64,000 bases of DNA. Origin: Streptomyces sp. HPF1205. Its GTDB lineage: Bacteria; Actinomycetota; Actinomycetes; Streptomycetales; Streptomycetaceae. Positions 2,320-28,722 of this stretch are shown piece after piece (position 1 is the first letter of the stretch; every line of letters starts with the position of its first letter). Made by a program: the position numbers and the translations under genes. The notes below the pieces were generated by a model. It made no database searches. It was not told the origin of the DNA and saw only the letters and a program-made list of their open reading frames with translations. The DNA is taken from assembly GCF_020400825.1 (NCBI RefSeq), contig NZ_JAINVH010000015.1, positions 1 through 64,000 of the forward strand, given 5' to 3'.

Positions 2320-3399
2320 GTGGCGCGGACGGTGGCGGGAGCCGAGGAGAGCGCGGCGCTGGGGAGGGCGCGGGCGGGGGACGGGGAGGCGTTCCGGCGG
2401 CTTGTGGAACCGTACCGGCGCGAACTCCAGCTGCACTGCTACCGCATCCTGGGCTCGGTGCACGACGCGGAGGATCTGCTGCAGGAGACGCTGCTGGCGG
2501 CGTGGCGGGGGCTGGGGGGATACGAGGGCCGGGCGTCGGTGCGGACGTGGCTGTACAGGATCGCGACCAATCGCTGTCTGAACGCGCTGCGGGACGGCGC
2601 CAGGCGGCCGTCGCAGGAGGCGTCGGGGTGGTGGCGTGCGGAGGTGCCGTGGCCGGAGCCGCAGCGGCGGCTGGCCGAGCCGAGCCGGCTGGAGCCGTAT
2701 CCGGACGTGCTGCTCGACGGGCTGCCGGACCGGGCGCCTGGGCCCGAGGCGCGGTACGAGGCGCGGGAGGCGGTGTCGCTGGCGTTCCTGACGGCGCTGC
2801 AGCAGTTGCCGGCCAGGCAGCGGGCGGTGCTGGTGCTGCGCGATGTGCTGGGGTTCCGGGCGGCCGAGACGGCCGCGATGCTGGGCGCGAGTGAGAGCGC
2901 GGTCACGAGCGCGCTCAAGCGGGCGCGGGCCGGTCTGGACGCGCAGGTGGCAGGGGCGGGGCGGGAAGAGGCGCCGCTTCCGGGTTCGGCGCGGGAGCGG
3001 CGGATCCTGGACGGCATGGCGCGGGCCTTCGAGACGGGCGACGTCGACGCGATCGTGGCGCTGCTGACGGACGACGCGTGGCTGACGATGCCGCCGCTGC
3101 CGCTGGAGTACCAGGGGGCGGCGGCGGTGGGGGACTTCCTGCGGACGGTCGCGCTGCGGGACGGCCGTACGTACGTGATGGTGCCGACGCGGGCGAACGG
3201 GCAGCCGGCTTTCGGGACGTACCGGCGCGATCCGCGCAGTCCTGTTCTGCGGCGGCACGGGGTGCTGGTGCTGACCCTCGCCGGGGACCGGGTCGCGATG
3301 ATGACGCGGTTCATGGACACCGCGCTGTTGGCGGCGTTCGGGCTGCCGGGGTCGCTGCGCGAGGGAGGGGGGTGGCCCGCGTCCCGCGGTGTCTCATGA
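2320..3399 (+). CDS. ECF sigma factor with C-terminal SnoaL-like domain
   Basis: A 359-aa sigma-70 family factor of the long ECF kind. Region 2 is at about residues 15-85 (YRILGSVHDAEDLLQETLLAAWRG, then FRTWLYRIATN-like RASVRTWLYRIATNRCLN). Region 4 is at about 150-215 (LPARQRAVLVLRDVLGF, then SESAVTSALKRAR). A tail of about 130 residues (RRILDGMARAFETGDVDAIVALLTDDAWLTMPP) looks like the SnoaL/NTF2 fold found in ECF41/ECF56-type factors, where the extension acts in cis in place of an anti-sigma protein. GTG 2320 was chosen because GAGAGGAG lies at 2305-2312. No anti-sigma gene is next to it. Confidence 0.88.
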   Translation: MARTVAGAEESAALGRARAGDGEAFRRLVEPYRRELQLHCYRILGSVHDAEDLLQETLLAAWRGLGGYEGRASVRTWLYRIATNRCLNALRDGARRPSQEASGWWRAEVPWPEPQRRLAEPSRLEPYPDVLLDGLPDRAPGPEARYEAREAVSLAFLTALQQLPARQRAVLVLRDVLGFRAAETAAMLGASESAVTSALKRARAGLDAQVAGAGREEAPLPGSARERRILDGMARAFETGDVDAIVALLTDDAWLTMPPLPLEYQGAAAVGDFLRTVALRDGRTYVMVPTRANGQPAFGTYRRDPRSPVLRRHGVLVLTLAGDRVAMMTRFMDTALLAAFGLPGSLREGGGWPASRGVS

Positions 3400-3801
3400 G
3401 TGGCCGCGGGCCGGTTCCGGCTCGTGCCGCGGCGTCTGCTCCTGCCGGAGGAGGAGGAGCGGTGTGGTCAGGATGAGCAGTCCCGTGACGGTGAGAGCGG
3501 TGCGCGGGCCGGTGGCGTCGGCGAGCAGCCCGGCGAGCGCGGTGAGGACGGCGATGGACGCCTGCTGCCCGATCGACCAGGCCGACAGGGTGCGGGCGAC
3601 CAGATGCTTGGGAGTCTGTTCGAGCCGGTAGGTGGCGAGCACCGGGCCGTACAGGCTCATGTTGACGATGATCGCCAGCTCGACGGTCATCACGGTGACG
3701 AGGCCGACGACGCCGGGACGGACGAAGGCCAGGCCGATCAGCCAGACGGCGCGCAGGGTGCCGACGGTCCGGAAGACCCACTGCCGGCCGAAGCGGGCCA
3801 C
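3394..3801 (-). pseudogene. Truncated MFS permease, C-terminal fragment
   Basis: About 135 codons encode only the last four or so helices of a major facilitator permease (VWLIGLAFVRPGVVGLVTVMTVELAIIVNMSLYGPVLATY, then ARTLSAWSIGQQASIAVLTALAGLLADATGPR). Intact relatives run to about 400 aa. The coding frame continues upstream of the GTG at 3801 for about nine codons and then meets a TGA inside the 24-bp tandem repeat, so the 5' two thirds are gone and are not elsewhere in the window. Its 3' end overlaps the sigma gene. It is probably a deletion remnant; a functional small membrane protein is less likely. Confidence 0.7.
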
Positions 3802-3822: not shown

Positions 3823-3900
3823 CGGACCGCGTCAATGGATGCGGACGCACCCGCGTCAATGGATGCGGACGCACCCGCGTCAATGGATGCGGACCGCGTC
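3823..3900. repeat. 24-bp tandem repeat at a gene-truncation junction
   Basis: Two perfect 24-bp units (3841-3864 and 3865-3888) begin GCGGACGCAC and end GTCAATGGAT. They are flanked by partial units, and the 11-bp sequence CGGACCGCGTC occurs at both edges (3823-3833 and 3890-3900). Read on the - strand, each unit contains CATCCATTGA, which is the stop region of the VirD4-like gene, so that gene's end has been multiplied in tandem. The period is a multiple of three. The repeat lies exactly between the truncated MFS fragment and the short C-terminus of the VirD4-like protein. Confidence 0.9.
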
Positions 3901-5727
3901 GGGGACGGCGGGGGGCAGGGTGTCCGCGGTGTCGTCGCCGAAGGCCAGGCGGACGTCGGCGGACTGCCACAGGGGTGAGTGCCAGCGGGCGAGGGCCTGT
4001 TCGGGGGAGCGCAGGACGGCGAGGGTGGGCAGGCCCGAGGCGTGGCCGGTGGACAGGAGGGTGGGGAGCTGGGGGAGAGGGGCCAGGGCGGCGACATCGT
4101 CGAGGACGAAGGTGAGTGGTGGGTCGAGCCGGCCGGCGGATGACCCTGCGGCCATGCGCCGGCCGTGCTCGACCACGCTGGAGACGAGTGCGGTGAGCAG
4201 GGGCATCGCACCCGGGCGTGACTTGGGGTCCTCGATCCGCTCACCCACTACGTACAGCGTTCCCCGTTCGGAGACGAACGACTCCAGGTCGAGGCCGCCG
4301 GCAGCGGCCTGTCTCGGAGGGTTGCACGCGTCGCGGATGTGGACGGACCCCAGGGGCTGGAGGATGTGGCGGATGAGCGCCTGGGCGGCGTCGCGGCGGT
4401 CGGGGTGGGCGTGCAGGACCGATTCGAGTTCGCCGCTCCAGCCGCTGGTGGCGGCGGTGTGGGTGCGCAGGATGCGGACCGCCTCGCCGGCGCCTGCCCC
4501 GGATTCGGGCCGGGCGGAGCCGCGTCTGGTGTCGCTCGCCGCCCAGCGCTGGATCTGCCGGAACGGGCGGCCGTCGACGGCCGCCGCGTGCAGCCAGCAG
4601 CGCAGCAGCGTGACGGCGGTGTCGTGGACGATGGCCTCGTCGGGGCGGGCGGGGCGCAGGGGGGCGAGGAGCGCGGCGGCCCGTATCGAGGCGTCCTGGG
4701 GGTTTTCGCAGCCGGTGTGCGGTGCCCAGCGCAGCCGCCCGGGGACGTCGAGGAGGTGGGCGGGGTCGTAGACGTGGACGGGACCGAGCTTGGCGCGGTT
4801 GCCGACGGTCTGGTGGTACGTGTCGGGGTCCGCGGTGGTGATCACGACCGGTCCCGCGGCGGCCAGGACGGCGGGCTGGATGACGCGCTTGGCCTTGTCG
4901 CCGCGCTCGCGGGCGAACAGGGCGTAGGTGCGGGTGATCTCGCCGTCGGCGAAGGGGTGGGCGGCGGTGCGTGCGCTGGGCTCGGGGGTGACGGCGGGCA
5001 GGACGGAGGTGGGGGCGTCGTCGCGGCCGGGGGCTCCGGGGGCTCCGGGGGCGTCCGGTGCTCCTGGGGCGCCGGGCGGAGGGACGGCCTGCGGGACGGT
5101 GCGGAACCAGGCGTCGAGGGTGTCGTCGCGGTGGGGTGCGGCCGGCCGCCGGGGGGCGGGCACGGCGGCGGTGGGGCCGGTGGGCGCGGCCTGGAGGCCG
5201 GTGCCGGGGCCGGTGCCGGGGCCTGCCCCGGAGTCCGCCCCCGTGCCGGGCTCGGCGTAGTCGGCCTGGGCGTCGTCGGCCTCGGCGTAGTCGGGCTCCG
5301 GGCCGGCCGTGGGCCGGCGGGCGGCCCGGGGCGTGCGGGCTGGGCGGGCGGGGGTGTCGCGGGGGCGCCGGGGCGCGGGCCGGCGGCGGCCGCGCAGCCG
5401 GGCGAGGGTGTTGACCACCCAGACGGCGAGCACGATCAGCACCATGAACTGGCTGATGAACACGCCCCAGAACAGCCCGGAGTCGGGCAGTCCCGCGGGG
5501 TCGGCGCCGTTCCAGGCGCCGGGGATGTCGTGCGGGTCGGAGATCAGTGCGCGCATGGCCCGCGGGGTGCGGGTGAAGTGGGCGTCGCCCGGCCAGTGGC
5601 CGTGGGCGAGCAGCCCGGCGATTCCGGTGCCGCTCCACACCAGGAAGGTCACCGCGAGCAGGACGGCGATGATGCCGACGACCAGGCCGTCCGGCAGGCC
5701 GCCCTCGTCCCTCTTCCGGTCCGCCAT
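3880..5727 (-). CDS. VirD4/TraG-like coupling protein, degenerate P-loop
   Basis: A 615-aa membrane protein with two N-terminal helices (about 14-33 and 84-107), a Pro/Ala-rich linker (110-240) and a C-terminal domain of the T4SS coupling-protein family. The family is recognised from GPVVITTADPDTY (292-304), GPVHVYDP (315-322) and LAPLPQLPTLLSTGHASGLP near 547-567. Where the Walker A loop belongs, the sequence reads LFARERGDKAKRVIQPAVL (270-288), with no GxxGxGKT. Walker B is LDDV rather than LDEA. The C-terminus ends in a tandem repeat and seems short. It is the last gene of the T4SS-like operon, the position of SCO4126 (cmdA) as I recall the cmd cluster. It may be a pseudo-ATPase scaffold. 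Start ATG 5727 follows AAGGAGGT. Confidence 0.78.
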   Translation of the reverse strand: MADRKRDEGGLPDGLVVGIIAVLLAVTFLVWSGTGIAGLLAHGHWPGDAHFTRTPRAMRALISDPHDIPGAWNGADPAGLPDSGLFWGVFISQFMVLIVLAVWVVNTLARLRGRRRPAPRRPRDTPARPARTPRAARRPTAGPEPDYAEADDAQADYAEPGTGADSGAGPGTGPGTGLQAAPTGPTAAVPAPRRPAAPHRDDTLDAWFRTVPQAVPPPGAPGAPDAPGAPGAPGRDDAPTSVLPAVTPEPSARTAAHPFADGEITRTYALFARERGDKAKRVIQPAVLAAAGPVVITTADPDTYHQTVGNRAKLGPVHVYDPAHLLDVPGRLRWAPHTGCENPQDASIRAAALLAPLRPARPDEAIVHDTAVTLLRCWLHAAAVDGRPFRQIQRWAASDTRRGSARPESGAGAGEAVRILRTHTAATSGWSGELESVLHAHPDRRDAAQALIRHILQPLGSVHIRDACNPPRQAAAGGLDLESFVSERGTLYVVGERIEDPKSRPGAMPLLTALVSSVVEHGRRMAAGSSAGRLDPPLTFVLDDVAALAPLPQLPTLLSTGHASGLPTLAVLRSPEQALARWHSPLWQSADVRLAFGDDTADTLPPAVPDAVRIH

Positions 5728-5750
5728 GGCGTCACCTCACCTCCTTGCGC

Positions 5751-7172
5751 TCACGCCACCTCGTCGGCCATCTGCTTGGCGAGCGCGACTTCGGCGGCGG
5801 CATGCGCCTCGGCCCGGGCCGCCGCTTCGGCTTCGGCCTCGGCTTCCTGCTCCGCCCGCTGCTGCGAGCTCTCGGTCATGGCGCGGTCGGTGAACACCAG
5901 CGGCCGTTCGGCCTCGGTGACCAGGTGCTTGACGACCTGTACGTTGCCGTTGACGTCCCAGACGGCGATGCCGGGCGTCAGGGTGGGAATGATCTCCACC
6001 GCCCAGCGCGGCAGGCCCAGGACCCGTCCGGTGGCGCGGGCCTCGTCGGCCTTCTGGGCGTAGATGGTGCGGGTGGAGGCCATCTTCAGGATCGCGGCGG
6101 CCTCCTTGGCGGCGGCGCCGTCCACGACGTCGGACAGGTGGTGGACGACGGCGACGAAGGACAGGCCGAGGCGGCGGCCGAACTTCAGCAGCCGCTGGAA
6201 GAGCTGGGCGACGAACGGCGAGTTGATGATGTGCCAGGCCTCTTCGACCAGGAAGATGCGCTTCTTGCGGTCCGGGCGGATCCAGGTGTGCTCCAGCCAC
6301 ACGCCGACGATCGCCATGAGGATGGGCATGGCGATCGAGTTGCGGTCGATGTGGGACAGGTCGAAGACGATCAGCGGGGAGTCCAGGTCGATGCCGGAGC
6401 TGGTCGGGCCGTCGAACATGCCGCGCAGGTCGCCGTCGACGAGGCGGTCGAGGACGAGGGCGACGTCCAGGCCCCAGGCGCGGACGTCCTCCAGCTGGAC
6501 GTTCATCGCCTCGGCGGACTCTGCGACGGGGTGGCGCAGCCGCTCCACGATGTCGGTGAGGATGGGCTGGCGGTCCGTCACGGTCTCGGCGACGTGGGCG
6601 TGGGCGACCTTCAGTGCGAAGCCGGAGCGCTCGTCCAGGCCGCGGCCCATGGCGACCTCGATGATGGTGCGCAGCAGGGCGAGCTGGCCGGTGACGGTGA
6701 TCGCGGGGTCGAGCGGGTTGAGTTTGATGCCGCCGTCGAGGGCGGCCATCGGGTCGAGCCGGATGGGGGTGAGGCCCATGGCGCCGGCGATGAGGTTCCA
6801 CTCGCCGACGCCGTCCTCGCCCTGGGCGTCGAGGACGACGACCTGCCGGTCGCGGAACCGCAGCTGGCGCAGGACGTACGTCTTCTCCAGCGCCGACTTG
6901 CCGTTGCCGGACTCGCCGAGGACGAGCCAGTGCGGGGCGGGCAGCTGCTGGCCGTAGAGCTGGAAGGGGTCGTAGATGTAGCCCTTGCCGGAGTACACCT
7001 CGCGGCCGATGATCACACCGGAGTCGCCGAGGCCGGGGGCGGCGGTGGGCAGGTAGACCGCCTGGGCCTGGCCGGTCGAGGTGCGGACCGGCAGCCGGGT
7101 GGTCTCCACGCGGCCGAAGAGGAAGCTGGTGAACGCGTCCGTGATCGCCGCGAGAGGGTCCAGCATGGGCAT
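5751..7172 (-). CDS. VirB4-like T4SS ATPase
   Basis: A 473-aa ATPase of the VirB4/TraC/HerA class. Walker A is GESGNGKS at 86-93 and Walker B is RIFLVEEAWH at 305-314; the sensor-like stretch FVAVVHHLSDVVDG follows. The C-terminus (about 440-473) is an Ala/Glu-rich helix and probably a coiled coil. Only the ATPase domain is present; the N-terminal VirB4 domain is on the next protein upstream in the operon, so VirB4 is split. It should power assembly or transport at the membrane. It corresponds to the ATP/GTP-binding member (cmdB, SCO4127) of the cluster linked to sporulation and chromosome segregation in S. coelicolor, as I recall. Confidence 0.85.
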   Translation of the reverse strand: MPMLDPLAAITDAFTSFLFGRVETTRLPVRTSTGQAQAVYLPTAAPGLGDSGVIIGREVYSGKGYIYDPFQLYGQQLPAPHWLVLGESGNGKSALEKTYVLRQLRFRDRQVVVLDAQGEDGVGEWNLIAGAMGLTPIRLDPMAALDGGIKLNPLDPAITVTGQLALLRTIIEVAMGRGLDERSGFALKVAHAHVAETVTDRQPILTDIVERLRHPVAESAEAMNVQLEDVRAWGLDVALVLDRLVDGDLRGMFDGPTSSGIDLDSPLIVFDLSHIDRNSIAMPILMAIVGVWLEHTWIRPDRKKRIFLVEEAWHIINSPFVAQLFQRLLKFGRRLGLSFVAVVHHLSDVVDGAAAKEAAAILKMASTRTIYAQKADEARATGRVLGLPRWAVEIIPTLTPGIAVWDVNGNVQVVKHLVTEAERPLVFTDRAMTESSQQRAEQEAEAEAEAAARAEAHAAAEVALAKQMADEVA

Positions 7173-7198
7173 GGCAGTGGCCTCCTCGTACGGGCGGG

Positions 7199-8743
7199 CT
7201 AGCGGCGGATGCCGGTAGCGAACGGCAACGTATTGACGAATGCCCGGTGGTGTTCACGATCGCACCACTCAAGCTTCAAATACGACTTACCGGCCGAAGC
7301 GCGGATGGTGCGTTTGTCGCGGGCGAGTGCTTCCGGGGTGCGTGAGGAGACTGTGATATAGCCGACGAGGTTCACTCCGGCGGCACCGCTGGCCAGGTCC
7401 TCGCCGCGCTGGTCGATCCGGCCGTGGTGGGCGATGTCGCGGGGGTCGATCACGCGGTTCATCTTGGCCTGGCGGCTGGCCTCGGCGTCGTCGTTGGTCT
7501 TCTCGGTGAGCATGCGCTCGATGGCCACGTCGGTGGGTTCCAGGTCCATGGTGACCGCGACGGTGCGGATCACGTCGGGCGTGTGCACCAGCAGGGGCGC
7601 GAGGAAGTTCACGCCGACCGGGGTGAGCGGCCATTCCTTGATCCAGGCGGTGGCGTGGTGCCAGGGCTCGCGGGTCGCCGACTCGCGGGTCTTGGCCTGC
7701 AGGTAGGTGGGCTCGGTGGCGTCGAGTTCGGCCGGCCAGGTGTTGCGGCGGGTCATGGCCTGGATGTGGTCGATGGGGTGGTCGGGGTCGTACATCGAGT
7801 GGACGAGGGAGGCGAGGCGGGCCTGCCCGAGCGGCTGGCGGACCCGGATGTCGGCCTCGGCCAGGCGGGCGCAGATGTCGTTGAGCTCGCGGGCCATCAC
7901 GGCGGCCAGGCCGGCGTCCTTGTCGACCTTGGCGCCGCGGGTGACGGTGGCGCGGGCCATGGCGTGGCCCTCGGCGGCCAGTTCGCGGGTGAAGTGCATG
8001 CAGGCGACGAGGTAGGCGCGGTGCTGTTCCGAGGAGGTGGACACCATGGACTGCAGCTGGTCGTAGGAGTCCTTGAGCCACCTGTCGGCGTCGGGGTCGC
8101 CGCGCAGGGCGACGTCCTTGGCGTGCGCGTCGGGGTCGGCGGGAAGGGTGCGGGCCAGCATCTGCAGGCGCGTCACATACCCGTCGCCGTTGGCGACATG
8201 CTTGAGCAGGGTGCCGAACCGCTCGACGAGGGCCTCCTGGTCCTCGCTGTCGCGCAGGCCGACGCCCGGGCCCTCGATCTCGATGGCGGCGGTGACGGTG
8301 CGGCGGTCCACGTGCAGCAGCACCGCGATCTCGTCGGGGCCGAAGGGCGCCGACAGCCAGGTGATCCGCCCGATGCCCGGCGGCGGCCCGACCTCGACCT
8401 CGCGCCCGTCGAGGCGGGTGCCGGCCTCCTGGACGCCGGAGCGGTAGGTGGGGGAGACGCGCAGGGTGCGGCGGTAGGTGCGGTTGATCTCGAACCAGCG
8501 GTAGAAGGTCCGCTTCCGGTACGGCATGTACACCGCGGCCAGGGCCAGGGTGGGCCAGCCGACGAGGCCGACGATCCGCAGCAGGAGTACCGGGATCAGC
8601 AGGCCGCTGAGCATGCCCAGGCCCGCGCCGGCGATGATCAGCGCGATCTCGCCGGTCTCCCGGTTCTTGCCCACGATCGCGTTGGGCCGCGCCTTCCCGA
8701 TCAGATACGTGCGCCGCGGCTGGGTGAACGGCTGGACCGTCAC
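7199..8743 (-). CDS. SCO6880-family protein (VirB3 plus VirB4 N-domain-like)
   Basis: A 514-aa protein of the SCO6880 family. Two adjacent helices (about 36-54 and 58-72) after a short cytosolic N-terminus resemble VirB3/PrgI/TcpE. The rest resembles the N-terminal non-ATPase domain of VirB4 (EIEGPGVGLRDSEDQEALVERFG, then VGYITVSSRTPEALARDKRTI). It has no P-loop and presumably pairs with the separate ATPase encoded 26 bases downstream. The GTG start at 8743 follows GGGAGGTGATC and overlaps the stop of the upstream gene by 4 bases, which indicates translational coupling. Confidence 0.82.
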   Translation of the reverse strand: MTVQPFTQPRRTYLIGKARPNAIVGKNRETGEIALIIAGAGLGMLSGLLIPVLLLRIVGLVGWPTLALAAVYMPYRKRTFYRWFEINRTYRRTLRVSPTYRSGVQEAGTRLDGREVEVGPPPGIGRITWLSAPFGPDEIAVLLHVDRRTVTAAIEIEGPGVGLRDSEDQEALVERFGTLLKHVANGDGYVTRLQMLARTLPADPDAHAKDVALRGDPDADRWLKDSYDQLQSMVSTSSEQHRAYLVACMHFTRELAAEGHAMARATVTRGAKVDKDAGLAAVMARELNDICARLAEADIRVRQPLGQARLASLVHSMYDPDHPIDHIQAMTRRNTWPAELDATEPTYLQAKTRESATREPWHHATAWIKEWPLTPVGVNFLAPLLVHTPDVIRTVAVTMDLEPTDVAIERMLTEKTNDDAEASRQAKMNRVIDPRDIAHHGRIDQRGEDLASGAAGVNLVGYITVSSRTPEALARDKRTIRASAGKSYLKLEWCDREHHRAFVNTLPFATGIRR

Positions 8744-10104
8744 CTGCGATCACCTCCCTGCGAAGAGCCGTTGGTGGGGCCGGGGCCGGACCTGGAGGGC
8801 GAACCGCCCCGGGCCGGCCCGCCCGCTCCGGTGCCCGTACCGGACGAGCCCGGGGTACGGGAGCTGTGGGCGGCCATGCCGCCGGCGACCGGGTTGGCCG
8901 GCTGCGGGCCGCCGCCCTGGGCCTGCTCCTGGGGGCCGCCGCGGGCGCTGTGGGTCTTGATGCCCTGTTTGACCAGCGCGGCCGGGGAGGAGATGACGGC
9001 GGCGGCCTGGCTGCCGCCGGCCTCCTTGCGGCTGTTGCGCAGGTTGACCACGTCGTCGCCGAAGCCGGGCACGAACCGGTAGATCGCGAAGCTGGCGAAG
9101 ATCGCGAGCAGGATGATGGCCAGGCCCGAGACGACGGCGGAGAAGGAGTCCGGGCCGTTGTCGCCGGCGGACAGGGCGCCGGCCAGCCCGAGCACGACCA
9201 CGATGACGGGCTTGACCAGGATGACCGCGATCATGATGCCGGCCCAGCGCCTGACGTGGTGCCACATGTTCTTGTCGACCAGGCCGGCGTAGACGGCAGT
9301 GCCCAGCAGGGCCCCGACGTACAGCAGCGCCGCTCTGATCACCAGTTCGAGCCAGAGCACGCCGGCGGCCAGGACGGACACCATCGACACCACGATCAGC
9401 ATGATCGGGCCGCCTCCTATGTCGGTGCCCTTGGTGAGGGCGCCGGAGAAGGAGCCGAAGAAGATCTGGGTGTCCGACTTGGTGCCCGAGCCGACCACGG
9501 CGGTGACGGCGTCCGTGGCGCTCACCACCGTGTACAGCACGAGGGGGGTGAACGCGCTGGCCAGGACGGTCAGCCACAGGAAGCCCACGGCCTCGGTGAG
9601 GGCCTCGGTCAGCGGCACGCCGCGCACGGCGCGCTTGGCGACGGCCAGCAGCCACAGGACCAGGGTCAGGATGGTGGACGCGGCGAAGACCACGGCGTAC
9701 TGCCGCAGGAACGCGGTGTTGGTGAAGTCCACCTGCGTGGTGCGGGTGACGGCGGCGGCCAGTTTGTCGATCGTCCACGACGCGGCGGTGGCGCAGCCCT
9801 TGGCCAGCGAGGTGAGCGGGTCGAGGGAGTCGGCGGCGCCGGACTTCGAGGGGGCGGTGGGAGTGCCCCGGGTGCAGTACGACTTGGCGGGGCCGCGGAT
9901 GTAGGCGCAAGGGTCGTGCGTGGGCGTGGGGTGGCCGGCGCCGTTCGCGGACGAGGTCGCGGACGAGGTCGCGGACGAGGTCGCGGACGAGGTCGCGGAC
10001 GGGGTCGGGCCGGGGGTGGCGAAGGCGCGCGTGGCCGTCAGGACGGCGGTCGCCTGGACGGCCGCCAGGGCGAGCGCGGCCTTGCGCAGAGCACTACCGG
10101 GCAT
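8740..10104 (-). CDS. VirB6/TrbL-like polytopic membrane protein
   Basis: A 454-aa protein with an N-terminal signal sequence (1-29, ending TRAFATP). A Ser/Ala/Thr repeat (about 34-53) follows, then a Cys-containing extracytoplasmic segment and about six hydrophobic helices between residues 138 and 350. The tail is Gly/Pro-rich and cytosolic (about 375-454). This is the layout of SCO6881-family VirB6/TrbL proteins that form the inner-membrane part of actinobacterial T4SSs. The Ser/Ala repeat is coded by a 12-bp tandem repeat and may vary in length between strains. It overlaps its neighbours by 4 and 11 bases, so it sits in a tight operon. Confidence 0.82.
   Translation of the reverse strand: MPGSALRKAALALAAVQATAVLTATRAFATPGPTPSATSSATSSATSSATSSANGAGHPTPTHDPCAYIRGPAKSYCTRGTPTAPSKSGAADSLDPLTSLAKGCATAASWTIDKLAAAVTRTTQVDFTNTAFLRQYAVVFAASTILTLVLWLLAVAKRAVRGVPLTEALTEAVGFLWLTVLASAFTPLVLYTVVSATDAVTAVVGSGTKSDTQIFFGSFSGALTKGTDIGGGPIMLIVVSMVSVLAAGVLWLELVIRAALLYVGALLGTAVYAGLVDKNMWHHVRRWAGIMIAVILVKPVIVVVLGLAGALSAGDNGPDSFSAVVSGLAIILLAIFASFAIYRFVPGFGDDVVNLRNSRKEAGGSQAAAVISSPAALVKQGIKTHSARGGPQEQAQGGGPQPANPVAGGMAAHSSRTPGSSGTGTGAGGPARGGSPSRSGPGPTNGSSQGGDRR
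9947..10006 (-). repeat. 12-bp tandem repeat coding a Ser-Ala-Thr-Ser tract
   Basis: Four perfect copies of GCGGACGAGGTC plus one variant copy, inside the VirB6-like gene. Each unit encodes four residues, so gain or loss of a unit keeps the frame. It lies just after the signal sequence, where length change is likely tolerated. Confidence 0.9.
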
Positions 10105-10990
10105 AGGTGAAGCCTCCGAACCCGTTCACCGCGTCGGCCATGTCCTTGGCCGACGACGCCGTCTGGTCCCGTCCTACGGGAGCGGGACCGTCCTTCTGCT
10201 GGAAGTCGGTGATCTTCCAGTCGCCGGAGGTCCAGGTCATCCGGAACGTGTTCGTGTACCAGCCCTCGGTCACCGGGCTGGTGGAGCCCTCGCCCGCCAG
10301 GCCGAACAGCGAGGAGTACCAGATGCTCACGGTCGCCGTGGCGCCGTCGTAGCCGGTGAGTTCGGCGCCGACGGGGTTGACCCGGCTTATGAACGTCATG
10401 CCCTTGGGCGCGGTGCCGTCGCTGTTCAGGCCGATGCGCTGCAGGAACGCGGGGTCGGTGTACGCCTTGTCCAGCTGGTTCCGCGAGGCCGCGGCGGCCC
10501 GCGGGGCGTAGACCGTGCTGACGATGCGGTGCCGCGTCTGCGTGTCGAACATCCCCGTCCCGCCCAGGGCCACCGCGTAGTTCGCCGCCGCCGACTGGGC
10601 GCCCTGCGCGGTGTGGGCGAAGCCGGAGGGGATGCCGGCGGTCCTGCCCGTGACGGGGGCGACGCCGGTGGGGGCGGTGGGGGCGGAGCCCTTCGAGCCG
10701 CGGGAGCCCGAGCCGGAGCCGGAGGAACCGGAGGAGCCGGTGGAACCGGAGGAGCCGGAGGAACCGGAGGAGCCGGAGGAGCCCGAGGCGCTGTCGGAGG
10801 ACGCCGTGGGGGAGGAGGAGTCGTGGGAGTGGCCGCCGCGGTTGGCGAAGGCGATCGCGGCGATGAGGAGGACGACGATGCTGACGACGGTGATCAGGGC
10901 GCGGCGGGGCTGGGCCGGGCGGCGGGCGCCGCCGCCGTGGCCCTCGGGCATCCGGGTCCTGGTCGGGGGGCCGTCCTGACCGAGGCTCAT
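10094..10990 (-). CDS. VirB8-like single-pass T4SS protein
   Basis: A 298-aa protein with a basic cytosolic N-terminus, one helix (31-49), a Ser/Gly-rich linker (about 57-98) and an extracytoplasmic domain (about 120-290). The outer domain has the look of the NTF2-like VirB8/TcpC fold (GMTFISRVNPVGAELTGYDGATATVSIWYSSLFG, then GDWKITDFQ). VirB8 proteins bridge core components. It is the second gene of the operon, and its last 11 bases overlap the VirB6-like start. The family assignment rests on architecture and context more than on a diagnostic motif. Confidence 0.72.
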   Translation of the reverse strand: MSLGQDGPPTRTRMPEGHGGGARRPAQPRRALITVVSIVVLLIAAIAFANRGGHSHDSSSPTASSDSASGSSGSSGSSGSSGSTGSSGSSGSGSGSRGSKGSAPTAPTGVAPVTGRTAGIPSGFAHTAQGAQSAAANYAVALGGTGMFDTQTRHRIVSTVYAPRAAAASRNQLDKAYTDPAFLQRIGLNSDGTAPKGMTFISRVNPVGAELTGYDGATATVSIWYSSLFGLAGEGSTSPVTEGWYTNTFRMTWTSGDWKITDFQQKDGPAPVGRDQTASSAKDMADAVNGFGGFTYAR

Positions 10991-11150
10991 CGGGCCGCCG
11001 CCTTCCCGGGCACGCCGCAGCGCCGCGGGACGCGGAGGGCACCGCTGCTCGATTGAGTGGGCATCAGCACGCAGCCTCGGGTGTGAAGGGAAGGCGGAGC
11101 CGGGGACGGGCTCCCGGGGGCGGAGCCGGCGCGGGCCGGCGGGGCCGTGG

Positions 11151-11459
11151 CTAGACGGCCATGCCGTACACGATGGTGAACAGGGTGCCGAGGGAACCGA
11201 TGATGAACACTCCGGTCAGTCCGGCGATGATCAACCCCTTGCCCTGCTCGGCGCTGAAGGTGTCGCGCAGTGCCGTCGCGCCGATGCGCTGTTTGGCAGC
11301 GCCCCAGATCGCGATGGCCAGGCACAGCAGGATCGCCACCGCCATGACCACCTCGACCATCACGCGCGCTTCGTTTCCCAGGCTACCGAAGGGTCCCCAG
11401 TCGGGCGCGATGCCGCCGATGATGGTGTTGATGTCGCCCTTCGCGGCTGCAAGATACAT
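11151..11459 (-). CDS. VirB2/TrbC-like small membrane protein
   Basis: About 102 aa with two hydrophobic helices (VMVEVVMAVAILLCLAIAIWG and GLIIAGLTGVFIIGSLGTLFTIVYGM) separated by a short basic loop. This is the pilin-like VirB2 pattern of Gram-positive T4SSs, but without an obvious long signal peptide. ATG 11459 (MYLAAAKGD) fits the GGTGGTGAG just upstream; the GTG at 11471 would add four residues. It is the first gene of the leftward operon and, with the other five, makes the six-gene set I recall as SCO4126-4131 (cmdA-F). A weak hairpin (11096-11114) follows it, before the VirB8-like gene. Confidence 0.75.
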   Translation of the reverse strand: MYLAAAKGDINTIIGGIAPDWGPFGSLGNEARVMVEVVMAVAILLCLAIAIWGAAKQRIGATALRDTFSAEQGKGLIIAGLTGVFIIGSLGTLFTIVYGMAV

Positions 11460-11696
11460 ATAACTCACCACCCCGCTCGATCAGTTGACTCCCTCGCCGG
11501 GGCGCAAGGGGCCAGGATCTATCTTGACTGAGGATTCCGCTGTTTCATGTCGACTCAGCGACTTTCTCGGTGGATCCTCCGTGTGATCCGGCCCCCAACC
11601 GGCAGACTGGTGCGCGGACCGGTGTTCGAAAGCCGTGGACGACTACTCTGTGTATCACGAGCATCACCGTAGGGCAACGGAAGGGACGGGCCCGCC
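11460..11696. promoter_or_regulatory. Divergent promoter region of the T4SS-like cluster
   Basis: These 237 bases separate the leftward T4SS-like operon from the rightward VirB1-like hydrolase, so one region probably drives both. It is clearly richer in A/T than the genes on either side (for example the stretch around 11517-11560). A TTGACT hexamer at 11523-11528 could be a rightward -35, but I found no matching -10, so no promoter is assigned. Confidence 0.4.
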
Positions 11697-12704
11697 GTGG
11701 CGCGGAAAATCTGGCTCACCGTCATCATGGGGGTGGGCCTGTTCCTTTCGCTGATCGCGCTTCTCGTGGTGGGGACCTTCTCGGCGGCGGCGGGGCTGGC
11801 GAGGAACGCCCGGGAGGCGGTGGCGCTGGCCAAGGGCGCGGTGCCGGCCGCGTACGAGCCGATCGTGCAGCAGTGGGGCAACCTGTGCCCGGCGCTGAAC
11901 CCGGCGCTGCTGGCCGCGCAGCTCTACCAGGAGAGCGGGTGGAACCCCAGGGCGCGCAGCGGGGCGGACGCGGAGGGGATCGCCCAGTTCATCCCGGGTA
12001 CGTGGGCGACGCACGGCGTGGACGGCGACGGCGACGGCAAGGCCGACGTGTGGGACCCGCAGGACGCGATCCCGTCGGCGGCGCGGTACGACTGCGATCT
12101 GGCGGCGTACGTGAAGAACGTGCCGGGGGACAACACGGACAACATGCTCGCGTCGTACAACGCGGGCGCGTACGCGGTGATCCAGGCGGGCGGCATCCCG
12201 CCGTTCGCCGAGACGCAGAACTACGTGCGGATCATCCGCTCGCTGGCGAAGAGCTTCGCGGCGCCCGTCGGCCGCCTGGCGCCCTCGCAGCAGGCGGCGG
12301 CGGCGATCTCGTTCGCGCAGGACCAGCTCGGCAAGAAGTACCTGTGGGGCGGCGAGGGGCGGGCCGACCAGGGCGGGCGGTTCGACTGCTCGGGCCTGAC
12401 GCAGGCGTCGTACGCCTCGGTGGGCGTCAAGCTGCCGCGGGTGGCCAACGACCAGTGGAACGCCGGGCCGCACCCGAGCCGCGACCAACTGCTGCCCGGT
12501 GACCTGGTGTTCTTCGCCTACGACCTCAACGACCCGCGCACCATTCACCACGTGGGCATCTACGTGGGCGGCGGCTACATGATCGACGCCCCGCACAGCG
12601 GCGCGTACATCCGCTTCGACCCGATCGACGCGGCGGACTACATCGGGGCGACGCGGGTGACCCAGGACGGCGCGGCGGCGCTGCCGTCGGCGCAGGCCGC
12701 GTAA
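11697..12704 (+). CDS. Lytic transglycosylase/NlpC-P60 peptidoglycan hydrolase
   Basis: A 335-aa two-domain cell-wall enzyme (VirB1-like). An N-terminal helix (about 5-28) serves as anchor or signal. An SLT domain follows (about 53-180) with catalytic Glu79 in QES and the motifs GIAQFIPGTW (94-103) and ASYNAGAYAV (152-161). An NlpC/P60 endopeptidase (about 205-325) has Cys231 in FDCSG, a His at 284/285 and H300. It should cut both glycan strands and stem peptides. Its divergent position at the head of the T4SS-like operon fits local wall opening for that machine. GTG 11697 is the start. Confidence 0.9.
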   Translation: MARKIWLTVIMGVGLFLSLIALLVVGTFSAAAGLARNAREAVALAKGAVPAAYEPIVQQWGNLCPALNPALLAAQLYQESGWNPRARSGADAEGIAQFIPGTWATHGVDGDGDGKADVWDPQDAIPSAARYDCDLAAYVKNVPGDNTDNMLASYNAGAYAVIQAGGIPPFAETQNYVRIIRSLAKSFAAPVGRLAPSQQAAAAISFAQDQLGKKYLWGGEGRADQGGRFDCSGLTQASYASVGVKLPRVANDQWNAGPHPSRDQLLPGDLVFFAYDLNDPRTIHHVGIYVGGGYMIDAPHSGAYIRFDPIDAADYIGATRVTQDGAAALPSAQAA

Positions 12705-12762: not shown

Positions 12763-12941
12763 GCCGGCCCCCGGCGCTGGTCACCCTTGCATAACGGCAT
12801 GGTGATCATCTGGCGAAAACCGGAACGCTACATATCGTGTCGGCCGTTGTACGGGGGAGAATGGCTTGTGACTCAAGCGACGGGGGTTGCACACGAGCCG
12901 AGCCACGTCACGTCAGCCGCCAGACAAGGGGCACCACCGCC

Positions 12942-13679
12942 ATGGCAGAGGTCGCTAACGACAGCGTGAACCCCGACATCCGCCTGCTGCGCGGCATCAA
13001 CGACCTCGCCCGGCAGGCGCCGCGCGGCGTCGACCGGGTGGTGGAGTTCCTCGCCGAGTACGGGGTGATGGTCGCGCTGGCGGCCGTGACCGCCTGGTGC
13101 TGGTGGCGGGTCGCCCGCCGCTCGGACGACGCCCCCGCCGCGGTCGCCGGCGTCGCCTGGTCGGTCCTGGCGGCCGGCGTCACGCTCCTGCTCGGCATCC
13201 CGGTGCGCGCCCTGGTCGCGCGCCCCAGACCGTACGAGGAGCACGACGGCCTGGACGTGCTGGCGCGCGCCCACGGCTTCTCCTTCGTCAGCGACCGCTC
13301 GGCGGTCGCCGGGGCCGTGGCCGTCGGGCTGTTCATGGTCAGCCGCAAACTCGGCGCCGTGGGCGGGCTGCTGGCCGCCGCCGAGGGGTTCGGCGTCGTC
13401 TACCTGGGGCTGCACTACCCGACCGACGTCATCGGCGGCTACGCGCTGGGCGCCGCCACCACCTTGCTGCTGGCCCCGCCCGCCCTGGCCCTGCTGACCG
13501 CCGCGACCACGGCACTGGCCCGCTCCCGGTGGGCGGTTCTGGTACGGGTGCCGGCGCGGGCCGGCGCACAAGGCGGTGCCGCGGGCGAGCGGGAGAGGGA
13601 GCGGGGGCGGGAGCGGCCGCGCGGCACCCAGCCGGCCCAGCGGCACCACAGCGCGGCCGACAAGGACCTCGCGGCGTAG
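12942..13679 (+). CDS. PAP2-family membrane protein with altered active site
   Basis: A 245-aa membrane protein of the PAP2/undecaprenyl-diphosphatase fold with four or five helices and a charged Arg/Glu-rich tail. The three phosphatase motifs are present but eroded. KX6RP is RALVARPRP (K to R). PSGH is replaced by VSDR, so the catalytic acid His is lost. SRX5HX3D is GVVYLGLHYPTD, keeping His and Asp but losing Arg. It may be inactive or act on something else. ATG 12942 with AAGGGG upstream fits better than the frame's upstream starts, whose extension (12837 onward) is unlike the family. Confidence 0.8.
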   Translation: MAEVANDSVNPDIRLLRGINDLARQAPRGVDRVVEFLAEYGVMVALAAVTAWCWWRVARRSDDAPAAVAGVAWSVLAAGVTLLLGIPVRALVARPRPYEEHDGLDVLARAHGFSFVSDRSAVAGAVAVGLFMVSRKLGAVGGLLAAAEGFGVVYLGLHYPTDVIGGYALGAATTLLLAPPALALLTAATTALARSRWAVLVRVPARAGAQGGAAGERERERGRERPRGTQPAQRHHSAADKDLAA

Positions 13680-24411: not shown

Positions 24412-24852
24412 TTACGGTCTCAAGGCCCGGAGCAACGCGTCGAGCAGCGGACGGTCCCGGTCGTGGGTCAGGCGGTGCCGGGCGGCGGCCGGCGGCAGCC
24501 ACTCCATCCGGTCGACCTCGCGGCTGGGCTCGAACCGCCCGCCGCCGGCCCTCGCCTCCCAGTAGCGGACCTCCTTGGGGCGCCCGTCGACCAGGTAGCG
24601 GCAGGTGGGCAGCGGCTCGCCCAGCTCGCACTCCGTCCCGGTCTCCTCGCGTGCCTCGCGCGCCGCGGCCGCCGGGAAGTCCTCGCCGCGCTTGAGCTTG
24701 CCCTTGGGCCAGCTCCAGTCGTCGTAGCGCGGCCGGTGCACCAGGGCGACCTCGATGCCGCCTCCCCCTGCCGCGGGGCGCCACATCAGCACGCCCGCGG
24801 CCCGGACGGGAGCGGGGCCGGGCGGGAGGCCCGCGATGTCGGTCCTGGTCAT
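24412..24852 (-). CDS. Nudix hydrolase (MutT-like)
   Basis: A 146-aa Nudix pyrophosphohydrolase. The Nudix box is GKLKRGEDFPAAAAREAREE followed by TG, with all Glu ligands for Mg in place. WSWPKGKL just before it is the MutT1/diadenosine-polyphosphate type. The C-terminal phosphohistidine-phosphatase domain of MutT1 proteins is absent. The genes that follow in the phosphate block suggest a nucleotide- or polyphosphate-linked substrate, but that is inference. A TAACGTTA palindrome (24407-24414) spans its stop codon. Confidence 0.87.
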   Translation of the reverse strand: MTRTDIAGLPPGPAPVRAAGVLMWRPAAGGGGIEVALVHRPRYDDWSWPKGKLKRGEDFPAAAAREAREETGTECELGEPLPTCRYLVDGRPKEVRYWEARAGGGRFEPSREVDRMEWLPPAAARHRLTHDRDRPLLDALLRALRP

Positions 24853-24886
24853 GTCTCCTCCTGTCCCGGGAGGCCGGTGGCGGCTG

Positions 24887-26113
24887 TTACCCGCGCGGGC
24901 CGGGCAGCGGACGGTCGCCCTCCGGCGCGGGGGGCAGGCCCTGCCACAGCCGGGAGAAGGCGAACCTGGCGGCCTCCACCTCGTGCCGCTGGTCGGCGTG
25001 CAGCACGCCCAGGGCGTACGCGGTGGCGGGCGCGATCCGCGGGGTGCGGGCGGCGGCGGCCACGGCGGCGGCGGACTCCGCGGCCTCCCGGTGCCGCCCC
25101 AGCACCTGCGCGGCCTCCACCAGCCGGTCGTCGCCGTACGGCTCCACGCCGGGCACCTCGGCGGCGTACCGGGCCAGCCGCAGCAGGATCCGTACCTGGT
25201 GCCAGGGCGCGTCCTGCAGGTCGGCGGTCAGTTCCGCGCCCAGCGACGCCTGCACCGCCTCCGCGTTGTACGGCAGCGCCGCCCGCCCCAGCGGCAGCGC
25301 GTCGGCGGCGTCGCACAGCCGCTGGTACGCCTGCGCGGCCAGCGGCGGCAGTACGGCGGGGGCGGGGTCGGCGGCGCGCCCGGTCAGCGGCACCTCCGAG
25401 GCCAGCACCGCCATGGAATCGGCCAGGCCGTGGAAGCGGGAGGAGCCCACCGCCTGCAGGGCCGCGGAGTGCGCCCGGGTGCGGGCCAGCGTCAACTGCC
25501 GCTCCAGCAGCGCCGCGGCCCGCGCGGCGCCCAGCGCGAGCGGTCCCGACCCGGTGCCGCCGCCCTCGACCTCGGCGAGCACGGACTCGGGCACGCCGGC
25601 CGTCGACAGCCGCCTGAGCGCCTCCAGCAGCCGGGCCAGCCGGCCGGTGTGCTGCGGCTCGCGGCCCAGCGTCGAGGTGAGCCAGCCCAGTTCGCCGCGC
25701 AGCGCCTCCGCCCAGCCCGGCTCGGTCAGCGGCGCGTACGTGTGCAGCACCGCGGCGATCCGCCGCGCGCTGCCGCGCAGCAGCGCGTCCGCCTGCCCCT
25801 CGCGTTCCGAGCGCAGGCCCAGGCCCCGCAGGAAGGCGGTCGCCTGTTCCCGCAGGTACCCGGTCAGCGCCCGCCCCGCGGTGAGCGTGCCCGCGGGGGG
25901 TGCGAGAACGGCCGTGTCGGGCGGCCCGCCCGTGGTGCGCGCGGGCGGTTCCCCGCCCGGCGTCGTCTTGCCGCTGGCCACTGCCGTGCTCCCCGTTCGC
26001 CTGGCCGCCGTGCGGTCGCGCGGCGGCTCGCTGGTCGTCGTCACTCCCGCACCCGGTGCCGCGGACGCCCGTCCGGGCGGCACGGCCGGTTCAGGTGGCT
26101 GCTGCTGGGCCAC
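24887..26113 (-). CDS. CHAD domain protein (polyphosphate-binding)
   Basis: A 408-aa protein with a Pro/Thr-rich first 75 residues, then a CHAD domain rich in Arg/His/Lys helices (about 80-380). It has repeated basic motifs such as [38 protein letters not shown] and [19 protein letters not shown] folds bind polyphosphate along a positive groove. Its place directly after ppk, overlapping that gene by 23 bases (26091-26113), strongly supports a polyphosphate role. No CYTH (triphosphatase) domain is fused to it. Confidence 0.88.
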
Positions 26114-28313
26114 GCCGGCGCCTCCGGGCGTCGATGAGCATCTCCTGGATGTTGGTCAGCGGCCGGCCCTCGGCGTCGGCGCTGTGCCGGGTCCAGTTGC
26201 CGTCGGCCGACAGGTGCCAGGACGACGTGGTGTCCGCCATCCCCGTCTGCAGCAGGTCGTTGAGCGTGGCGCGGTGGACCGGGTTGACCACCCGTACCAG
26301 CGCCTCGATCCGCCGGTCGAGGTTGCGGTGCATCATGTCGGCGCTGCCCAGCCACACTTCGGACTCGCCGCCGCCGCCGAACACGAACACCCGGGAGTGC
26401 TCCAGGAACCGGCCCAGGATGCTGCGCACCCGGATGTTGTCCGACAGCCCGGCCACGCCGGGCCGCACCGCGCAGATGCCGCGCACCCAGATGTCCACCG
26501 GCACCCCGGCCTGCGAGGCCCGGTACAGCGCGTCGATCACCGCCTCGTCGACGATCGAGTTGACCTTCATCCGCACGTACGCCGGCCGGCCCGCCTTGTG
26601 GTGCGCGATCTCCGCCATGATCCGGCGGATCAGGCCCTCGCGCAGGCTGCGCGGGGCGACCAGCAGCCGCTTGTAGGCGTCCCGCCGCGAATAGCCGGAC
26701 AGCCGGTTGAACAGGTGCGACAGGTCGGCGCCCACCTGCGGGTCGGCGGTCAGCAGGCCGAGGTCCTCGTACACCCTGGCCGTCTTCGGGTGGTAGTTGC
26801 CGGTGCCGACGTGGCTGTAGCGGTTGAGGACCTCGCCCTCCTGCCGCACCACCAGCGACAGCTTGGAGTGCGTCTTCAGGCCGACCAGCCCGTACACCAC
26901 GTGGCAGCCCGCCTCCTCCAGCTTGCGGGCCCACTTGATGTTGGCCTGCTCGTCGAAGCGCGCCTTGATCTCGACCAGCACCAGCACCTGCTTGCCGGCC
27001 TCGGCCGCGTCGATGAGCGCGTCCACGATCGGCGAGTCGCCGGAGGTGCGGTACAGGGTCTGCTTGATGGCCAGCACGTCCGGGTCGGCGGCCGCCTGCT
27101 CCAGGAACGCCTGCACCGAGGTGGAGAACGAGTCGTACGGGTGGTGCAGCAGCACGTCCCGCTCGCGCAGCGCCGCGAAGATGTCCGGCGGCGAGGCGGA
27201 CTCCACCTCGGCCAGGTCGCGGTGGGTGCCGGCGATGAACTTGGCGTACTTCAGCTCCGGCCGGTCCAGGCCCGCGATGGCGAACAGCCCGGTCAGGTCC
27301 AGCGGACCGGGCAGCGGGTAGACCTCGCGGTTCTGCATCTTCAGCTCGCGCATCAGCAGGTTCAGCACGCGCGGCGCGATGGACTCCTCGACCTCCAGCC
27401 GCACCGGCGGGCCGAAGCGGCGCCGCATGAGCTCCTTCTCCAGCGCCTGGAGCAGGTTCTCCGCGTCGTCCTCCTCGACCTCCAGGTCCTCGTTGCGGGT
27501 GACCCGGAACATGTGGTGGTCGATGACCTCCATGCCGGGGAAGAGGTAGTCCAGGTGCGCGGCGATCACGTCCTCCAGCGGCACGTACCGCTGCGGGCCG
27601 GCCTCCAGGAAGCGGGACAGGATCGGCGGCACCTTCACCCGCGCGAAGTGCTCGTGCCCGGAGACGGGGTTGCGCACCACGACCGCCAGGTTCAGCGACA
27701 GCCCCGAGATGTACGGGAAGGGGTGCGCCGGGTCCACCGCCAGCGGCGTCAGCACCGGGAAGATCTGCTGCCGGAACAGGATCGCCAGCCGCTCCTGCTC
27801 CTGGCGGGTCAGATCACCCCAGCGGATGACGTGGATGCCCTCCTCGGCGAGCTGCGGCGCCACGTCGTTCTGGAAGCAGGCGGCGTGCCTGGCCATCAGC
27901 TCGCGCGACCTGGTGAGTATCAGGTCGAGGACTTCCTTGGGCTGCAGGCCGGAGGCCGAGCGGGTGGCCACACCCGTGGCCATGCGGCGCTTGAGGCCCG
28001 CCACCCGGACCATGAAGAACTCGTCGAGGTTGCCGGCGAATATGGCCAGGAACTTGGCCCGCTCCAGCAGCGGGGTGGTGGGGTCCTCGGCGAGCTCCAG
28101 CACCCGCTCGTTGAACGCCAGCCAGCTGCGCTCGCGGTCCAGGAACCGGCCCTCGGGCAGTTCCTCGCCGAACTCCTCGCCCGCCTTGCTCAGGTCGGGC
28201 AGGTCGGGTTCGGCGGGCGGGGCGACCAGGCGCGGCCGGAAAACGCCGTCGGGCTCCCCCGGCTCGCCGGGCAACGACTGGGCGGGGACACTGGGATTGT
28301 TGGTCTGGGCCAT
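26091..28313 (-). CDS. ppk: Polyphosphate kinase 1
   Basis: A 740-aa Ppk1 that reversibly makes polyphosphate from ATP. The N-terminal domain begins [19 protein letters not shown], then [19 protein letters not shown]. The two PLDc-like C domains carry the family motifs [36 protein letters not shown] (the His region for autophosphorylation) and [22 protein letters not shown] 28313 (MAQTNNPS) follows GAGGAGGG; the frame is open to 28463, but that extension lacks a ribosome site. With CHAD and Nudix genes it forms a polyphosphate operon beside pst. Confidence 0.95.
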
Positions 28314-28722
28314 GGGGTTCGAGCCCTCCTCCGGTTCCGGCACGTGCGGCGTGCGGCCGGCGGCCTTGCCGAGGCGGCCATCAGCCGTCGCTCCATTGTC
28401 CCGTGTTCCCGAGGATTCCGGCAGGTCGGGCGGGGGTGCGGGGGCAGGGGCGGCGGGCTGCATCCGCCGATGCTCGCAAGGGAGATTGAATCGCCGGTAA
28501 CGAGCGCGTTGCCGTCAGGCAAGCGGGGTGCTTCCGGAAAGGGTGGGGCGGGGGCGGCGGAGGGGTCCGTTCCGGGTTCCTTCCGGGCTCGCTCGCGGCT
28601 CGTTCCGGGCTCGTTTTCGGCCTCGTCCGCGTCCTGCCAACGCCGTTCCCGTGCCCTCGCGGCGCCCGCCCGCGCCCGCCGTTCCCCGTACCCTCCGCGG
28701 CCGCCGTATGTCCTTGCGTGCC
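28314..28722. promoter_or_regulatory. Intergenic region upstream of ppk
   Basis: These 409 bases between mshD and ppk hold no gene I can support. On the - strand GTTACCGGCG followed by ATTCAATCTC (about 28501-28482) is a poor match to the 11-bp PhoP repeats, so phosphate control of ppk is possible but weak. The half nearer mshD (about 28555-28640) has imperfect repeats of CGTTCCGGGCTCG, with no coding sign. Confidence 0.4.

Follow-up and report, generated by a model that had tools for sequence, protein, structure and literature searches.

The window analysed here is a stretch of 64,000 nucleotides from Streptomyces sp. HPF1205 (assembly GCF_020400825.1, contig NZ_JAINVH010000015.1, positions 1 to 64,000) that starts at base 1 of a 198,926-base contig (C56) in an 8.4-Mb draft genome. 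It carries a cluster of genes resembling parts of a type IV secretion system (T4SS), six of them co-directional and a seventh, for a hydrolase, divergent (Table 1). As judged from encoded peptides and gene order, the genes at 3880-12704 are the Actinacidiphila copy of the published cmdABCDEF (SCO4126-4131) and tgdA (SCO4132) genes of Streptomyces coelicolor. The locus is not a new find: the cmd genes, their phenotypes and their VirB4 likeness have been known since 2009, and cmdABCDEF-tgdA and its mutant phenotypes are in print (PMC2782261 and PMC6585502). A preliminary description of the stretch spoke of a complete minimal T4SS-like set, of which the T4SS-type parts stand but the completeness does not, and it counted the VirD4-like gene within 5751-12704, outside which that gene lies. 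CmdA lacks a canonical Walker A motif and is truncated, and the set is therefore not a complete working T4SS.

Table 1. Genes and features of the cmd-tgdA locus, in window coordinates
Feature	Position	Strand	Description
cmdA	3880-5727	-	Relic of a VirD4/TraG-like coupling protein, 615 aa
cmdB	5751-7172	-	VirB4 C-terminal ATPase chain
cmdC	7199-8743	-	VirB3(PrgI)-like N-terminus and VirB4 N-domain in the C-terminal half; SCO6880 family
cmdD	8740-10104	-	VirB6/TrbL-like polytopic membrane protein
cmdE	10094-10990	-	VirB8-like; one membrane helix, low-complexity linker, NTF2-like extracellular domain
cmdF	11151-11471	-	VirB2-like, 106 aa, two membrane helices
cmdF-tgdA divergent intergenic region	11472-11696		Conserved TGTGTATCAC block
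tgdA (SCO4132) counterpart	11697-12704	+	SLT lytic transglycosylase and NlpC/P60 endopeptidase, VirB1-like
PAP2 phosphatase gene	12837-13679	+	Pfam PAP2 2.3e-9; travels with tgdA, membership of the machine putative

The layout agrees with that of S. coelicolor, where six co-directional genes with the ATPase gene (SCO4127) in second place are joined by tgdA as the next gene number; the window differs in coming from another genus, Actinacidiphila, and here too cmdA to cmdF run in one direction, the VirB4-like ATPase is second and tgdA adjoins. Translation of the published S. coelicolor cmdB mutagenesis primers gives ESGNG-x-SALE and VQVV-x-HLIT, where x marks the two mutated lysines, and the window's CmdB reads ESGNGKSALE and VQVVKHLVT at these places. 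Only the encoded peptides match, the primer DNA having no counterpart in the window at up to three mismatches. ESGNGKSALE is absent from all 12 mobile relatives checked; three of 38 CmdB entries fail this motif and seven the second, through variants or extraction errors, yet GESGNGKS is present in 37 of 37. The proposed orthology to S. coelicolor cmd rests on these primer-encoded peptides, on gene order and on the universality of the cluster, the sequence of SCO4126-4132 lying outside the loci compared. According to the published work, deletion of cmdB to cmdF in S. coelicolor disturbs aerial growth, sporulation and the control of actinorhodin, while deletion of cmdA, alone among the six, has no visible phenotype; the need for cmd in aerial growth and sporulation extends to S. 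lividans and S. avermitilis (PMC2782261). Mutants of tgdA are likewise disturbed, and transposon peaks lie on cmdBCDEF and tgdA (PMC6585502). Proposals of a VirB4-like ATPase and of a possible "type IV-like channel" date from that time, and the available sections of that account make no mention of VirD4 (PMC2782261). Among the papers listed by our full-text literature search there was no later T4SS analysis of the locus, and the Streptomyces passages located in a 2025 T4SS nomenclature review do not mention it (PMC12857230).

The arrangement of the cmd genes is far beyond chance. Order and orientation of eight genes, PAP2 included, are kept in 17 of 17 same-genus loci (17 fetched from the 33 other genomes of the genus), and across 37 loci of the order (these 17 and 20 beyond the genus) cmdB to cmdF keep theirs in all 37, with cmdA present in 30 and the hydrolase gene (slt) in 32. 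A second set of 80 named loci (L074-L153, the best 80 of 545) partly overlaps the first, so that counts from the two are not to be summed; in 68 of these 80 the sequence extends 1.8 kb or more upstream of cmdF, and 50 of the 68 have slt there. In the window cmdD shares 11 bases with cmdE and 4 with cmdC. The TGTGTATCAC block between cmdF and tgdA is at least 90% conserved in the aligned loci of the order and may be a developmental operator.

CmdB has the features of a VirB4 ATPase. Pfam AAA_10 (E 3.1e-11), P-loop_TraG (4.9e-8) and VirB4-type NCBIfam models match it, its profile matches the VirB4 entry 4ag5 of the PDB (E 6.6e-4), and both Walker motifs are present, A as GESGNGKS and B as LVEEAW. 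Walker A is kept in 80 of 80 named and 37 of 37 other loci, and Walker B in 80 of 80 and 36 of 37. The profile also matches the VirB4 of pCF10; hhalign with the single pCF10 sequence gives a probability of 14% and E 0.0019. The cmdB match falls in two pieces near residues 195-266 in three genomes (G068 and G135, about 60 bases apart, and G116, overlapping), so that some species may have an insertion there or a change of frame.

The remainder of VirB4 is carried by CmdC, a separate chain that matches NCBIfam NF042935 (E 4.6e-53) and belongs to the SCO6880 family, as do ten of ten aligned members. The C-terminal half of CmdC is the VirB4 N-domain, and single-chain relatives give the clearest proof of the split: in four of seven single-chain VirB4s (L168, L169, L173 and L174; 846-978 aa) a region matching this half directly precedes a CmdB-like ATPase (E 1e-12 to 1e-15). 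These four match the NCBIfam VirB4, CD1110 family, at E 1e-87 to 1e-95, with scores slightly below the family cut-off. Against L175 and the VirB4s of pCF10 and R388 the CmdC profile gave no match at a domain E below 1, hhalign with the single sequences of pCF10 PrgI, pCF10 VirB4 and R388 VirB4 stayed under 1% probability, and neither the CmdC nor the CmdE profile found a sequence relative of note in the PDB. The AlphaFold model of CmdC, with a mean predicted local distance difference test (pLDDT) score of 37, was too poor for a structure search. The N-terminal end of CmdC resembles VirB3/PrgI, having two membrane helices and, in two of ten relatives (plasmid copies, not the window copy), a weak PrgI match of E 0.003-0.006 that lies below the Pfam cut-off. 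The two-chain VirB4 with its N-domain on a VirB3-like chain, as first described, is supported. The split is not peculiar to the cmd genes, since relatives on plasmids and other mobile elements also have the two as separate genes, annotated by NCBI as 'SCO6880 family protein' and 'ATP/GTP-binding protein', and from these comparisons it is normal for the SCO6880-type family, plasmids included. Weak Pfam matches to EccE of the type VII ESX system at residues 261-318 of two plasmid CmdC relatives (L154 and L156; E 0.02 and 0.21) may be due to chance or may reflect a remote relationship between the two systems.

For CmdE the evidence is structural. Its AlphaFold core (residues 110-270, pLDDT about 95) returns only VirB8-family proteins among the best 25 VIA-align rows (DotI, TraE, TrwG, CagV and PrgL, for example; Z 10.6-12.8), although the lower VirB8 rows stand less than 1 Z from unrelated NTF2 folds, and Foldseek ranks plant ARC6 first (E 4.9e-5) and an IcmL-like T4SS protein third. 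The model gives CmdE a VirB8 fold, a claim that rests on the VIA-align order, and a shared fold is no proof of function. CmdD appears to be TrbL/VirB6-like: it has predicted membrane segments, and two of four aligned homologues match TrbL_4, with E 1.9e-4 at best, while the window copy has no such match. The VirB2-like gene of the preliminary description is cmdF, a likeness that rests on the small size of the protein, its pair of membrane helices, its place in the cluster and an identity of 39% to the proteins in the corresponding place of plasmid clusters; Pfam T4SS_pilin reached only E 0.45, in one of four members. The divergent VirB1-like hydrolase named there is well founded, TgdA having NLPC_P60 (5.8e-24) and SLT (2.2e-14) domains. 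A tgdA-like SLT/C40 gene heads two of three plasmid clusters (L154 and L156), so that tgdA is probably this family's VirB1. Median ratios of nonsynonymous to synonymous substitution rates (dN/dS) over 136 pairs within the genus are 0.28 for cmdA (conserved part), 0.10 for cmdB, 0.12 for cmdC, 0.39 for cmdD, 0.50 for cmdE, 0.05 (0.054) for cmdF and 0.27 for slt, so that CmdF is the most constrained protein of the cluster, followed by the VirB4 chains CmdB and CmdC.

CmdA is, from its motifs, a VirD4 relic. In the window it keeps two membrane helices near the N-terminus and a disordered linker, its P-loop is replaced (RERGDKAKR), the DE of Walker B has become DD and the C-terminus is truncated: of the 126 positions of the Pfam TraG-D_C profile it matches only 1-71 (E 4.2e-5), where two plasmid VirD4s match 1-125 and a third matches 2-95. 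A canonical Walker A is found in none of the 70 CmdA proteins of the named loci and none of the 29 from other loci, a count that excludes L046, whose CmdA is without its P-loop region. The motifs of a functional VirD4 coupling ATPase are accordingly missing. In L066 the P-loop region reads GPARSGKAT; in the genus it is PRGDKAKR or a similar sequence, and in Streptomyces-type loci it can no longer be recognised; the trace (GDK) visible in the window copy is gone from the Streptomyces-type copies read. Beside cmdB, no cmdA was detected in six loci (L065 and L067-L071), and a seventh (L073) stops at a contig edge; the ten named loci other than the 70 with cmdA end at most 1.2 kb from cmdB. Among 13 mobile loci VirD4 is detectable in ten, and in all ten its P-loop ends in [GS]K[ST]; nine fit the P-loop pattern used, and the tenth (L035) reads APRSGKTS. 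Beside cmdA lies a short piece of a major facilitator superfamily (MFS) gene (135 aa, window 3394-3801, profile 57-186 of 347), perhaps a gene remnant.

The closest mobile counterparts are the SCO6880-type T4SSs of plasmid pMDJK44.2, an A. glaucinigra plasmid and a plasmid of S. sp. NBC_01244. They share the gene order SLT/C40 - VirB2 - VirB8 - VirB6 - CmdC - CmdB - VirD4, a CmdC about 42-44% identical and a VirB4 in two chains, and differ in that their VirD4 has an intact Walker A. As to relaxases, pMDJK44.2 is typed MOBF, the NBC_01244 plasmid has an annotated MobF about 8 kb past VirD4, and the A. glaucinigra plasmid is typed non-mobilizable. Three genes of SLP2.19-23 on S. lividans SLP2 are 22-33% identical to SCO4127-4129; these SLP2 genes are needed for conjugal transfer, whereas cmd deletion leaves plasmid transfer unchanged, that of an SLP2-derived plasmid included (PMC2782261). 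The pCF10 T4SS (PrgI, CD1110-type VirB4, PrgL/VirB8, VirD4), which is conjugative and of Gram-positive origin, likewise has its PrgI and VirB4 genes as neighbours, and the CmdE model matches the VirB8 domain of PrgL at Z 10.6; it differs in its one-chain VirB4 and in having a relaxase and a coupling protein of its own. The genome of the window itself has three more SCO6880-type T4SS loci (on contigs C12, C67 and C100; L034-L036), with CmdB 30-38% identical, and a TrwC relaxase at 39,961 of C100 is 37 kb from one mobile-type cmdB paralogue.

The cmd cluster is, by its distribution, a chromosomal core of the order. cmdB is present in 34 of 34 genomes of the genus, our own included, and in 291 of 293 of the order (E <= 1e-60); of the two misses, one (G125) has cmdC at a contig end, a contig break, and the other (G247, 850 contigs) is without cmdB and cmdC. 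In a sample of the class 27 of 246 genomes match cmdB at E <= 1e-90, 26 of them in the order, which leaves one of 220 outside, an assembly in 970 contigs with contamination of 6%. Where a genome of the genus comes in few contigs, cmdB lies near mid-chromosome, and no relatives were found in viral contigs. A mutT-CHAD-ppk-GNAT block stands right after cmdB in another family of the order (L069) and recurs in the window at 24451-29544 on the minus strand, 13-18 kb past the cluster; this favours inheritance of the position. A midpoint-rooted tree of 37 CmdC sequences gathers the chromosomal copies in a single group (support 59/95) next to seven mobile relatives; branches within the group are short, and their order is broadly that of genera and families. 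Long branches in the tree are a warning that artefacts may be present. One capture by the chromosome of the order's ancestor followed by vertical inheritance would be the simplest reading.

Relaxase and integrase genes in cis, missing according to the preliminary description, were not found. Relaxase families PF03432 and PF03389 have no match in the genome and PF08751 has one, on C100; a relaxase just outside the window, which would have made the cluster part of a conjugative element, is thus not seen for any of the three families on the 199-kb C56, sequence to the left of its base 1 not being covered. Integrase PF00589 is absent from the window, its nearest match lying more than 75 kb off at C56:88395-88968 (matches at 88.4-89.0 kb); serine integrases were not searched. 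The readings as a conjugative element and as a pure remnant were rejected, on the grounds set out below for a defective or dormant element.

In model T4SSs, VirB2, VirB3, VirB4, VirB6, VirB8 and VirB1 build the channel and pilus. Here this set is kept and the part that loads DNA or effectors is lost, and we therefore favour, with roughly even confidence, a conjugation-type T4SS of the Gram-positive kind, related to those of MOBF actinobacterial plasmids, that was domesticated once and serves as a VirD4-independent envelope machine of the aerial hypha. Its DNA-loading motor has probably decayed, and the machine has probably been repurposed for envelope building during sporulation. A fuller version, held more tentatively, places the domestication in the order's ancestor, has the machine still in use as a coupling-protein-free, pilin-driven device, and lets VirD4 loss follow stepwise, from the near-intact P-loop of L066 through the decayed one of Actinacidiphila and the unrecognisable one of Streptomyces-type loci to the L067-L071 family, with no neighbouring gene. 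The parts, their order, their conservation, the intact VirB4 ATPase and the loss of the VirD4 P-loop come from sequence, the need for cmdB-F and tgdA in normal aerial growth and spore-chain formation of S. coelicolor comes from papers, and from these we infer a mechanism. TgdA would open the peptidoglycan, and the channel across the membrane would consist of CmdE (VirB8), CmdD (VirB6) and the VirB3 part of CmdC. CmdB, as an ATPase docked on CmdC, would drive insertion or extrusion of the pilin-like CmdF through the aerial-hypha wall, and perhaps also drive small protein cargo through. No coupling protein would be needed, and relaxase-bound DNA would therefore not be the cargo. Defects in branching, septation and chromosome placement would follow from the failed envelope step.

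Several observations weigh against this envelope machine. The VirB2 likeness of CmdF is mainly positional; the pilus, the exported product and the substrate are all still putative; the bootstrap of the cmd group in the tree is weak (59); and tgdA does not adjoin cmdF in 18 of the 68 named loci with room for it and in five of 20 loci outside the genus. CmdA remains under purifying selection (dN/dS 0.28) and may for that reason still serve a structural purpose although its P-loop is gone. Finally, anucleate spores, at 6-8% in cmd mutants against 0.1%, could point to DNA handling (PMC2782261). Such an origin, with chromosomal DNA moved or anchored at sporulation septation, was suggested in that paper for the type IV-like channel, and would agree with the RecA/FtsK-like prediction made there for CmdB and with a DUF87/HerA similarity of E 0.017. 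We think it improbable: VirD4, the DNA-handling part of a T4SS, has lost its P-loop or its whole gene, the contig has no match to the three relaxase families, plasmid transfer was unchanged in the published deletion, and the earliest defects reported concern aerial growth and branching (PMC2782261).

Export that bypasses a VirD4 receptor, with protein effectors or wall enzymes taken up from the outer face of the membrane or directly through VirB4, is the strongest of the rivals and still an unlikely one. A few VirD4-less T4SSs export in such a way. Intact VirB4, VirB6 and VirB8 parts beside a decayed CmdA fit it, as does the access to the wall that tgdA would give, but, tgdA and PAP2 apart, no conserved gene for a cargo accompanies the cluster, and in part of Streptomyces these two do not adjoin it; the cargo could be encoded elsewhere. 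We give considerably less weight to a membrane scaffold or signalling complex that exports nothing, with CmdB ATPase activity as a readout of the state of the envelope that alters development and antibiotic genes. It would account for the early transcription of actII-orf4 in the deletion (PMC2782261) and would leave the retained pilin-, VirB8- and hydrolase-like parts unexplained. That cmd is a defective or dormant conjugative element with no function of its own is hardly credible. A decayed VirD4 and the lack of a relaxase or integrase nearby would suit it, and screens for integrative and conjugative elements (ICEs) could list cmd among defective ICEs: in a Streptomyces population all 11 strains were reported to carry such an element near mid-chromosome (PMC9513070), and it may be the cmd locus. 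Strong purifying selection on CmdB, CmdC and CmdF and conservation over the order speak against dormancy, and mutant phenotypes in three species refute its 'no function' version (PMC2782261).

A domesticated, VirD4-independent envelope machine would also bear on the published genetics. With the coupling protein dead or gone and the other parts maintained by selection, deletion of cmdA would have no visible effect and deletions of cmdB-F would have one, so that our comparison adds a testable reason for this difference between the mutants. It also raises the question of what leaves through a T4SS without VirD4, and does so in strains that are easy to work with in the laboratory. If the favoured reading is true, a whole bacterial order has kept a T4SS for its own development, and not for gene transfer or attack.

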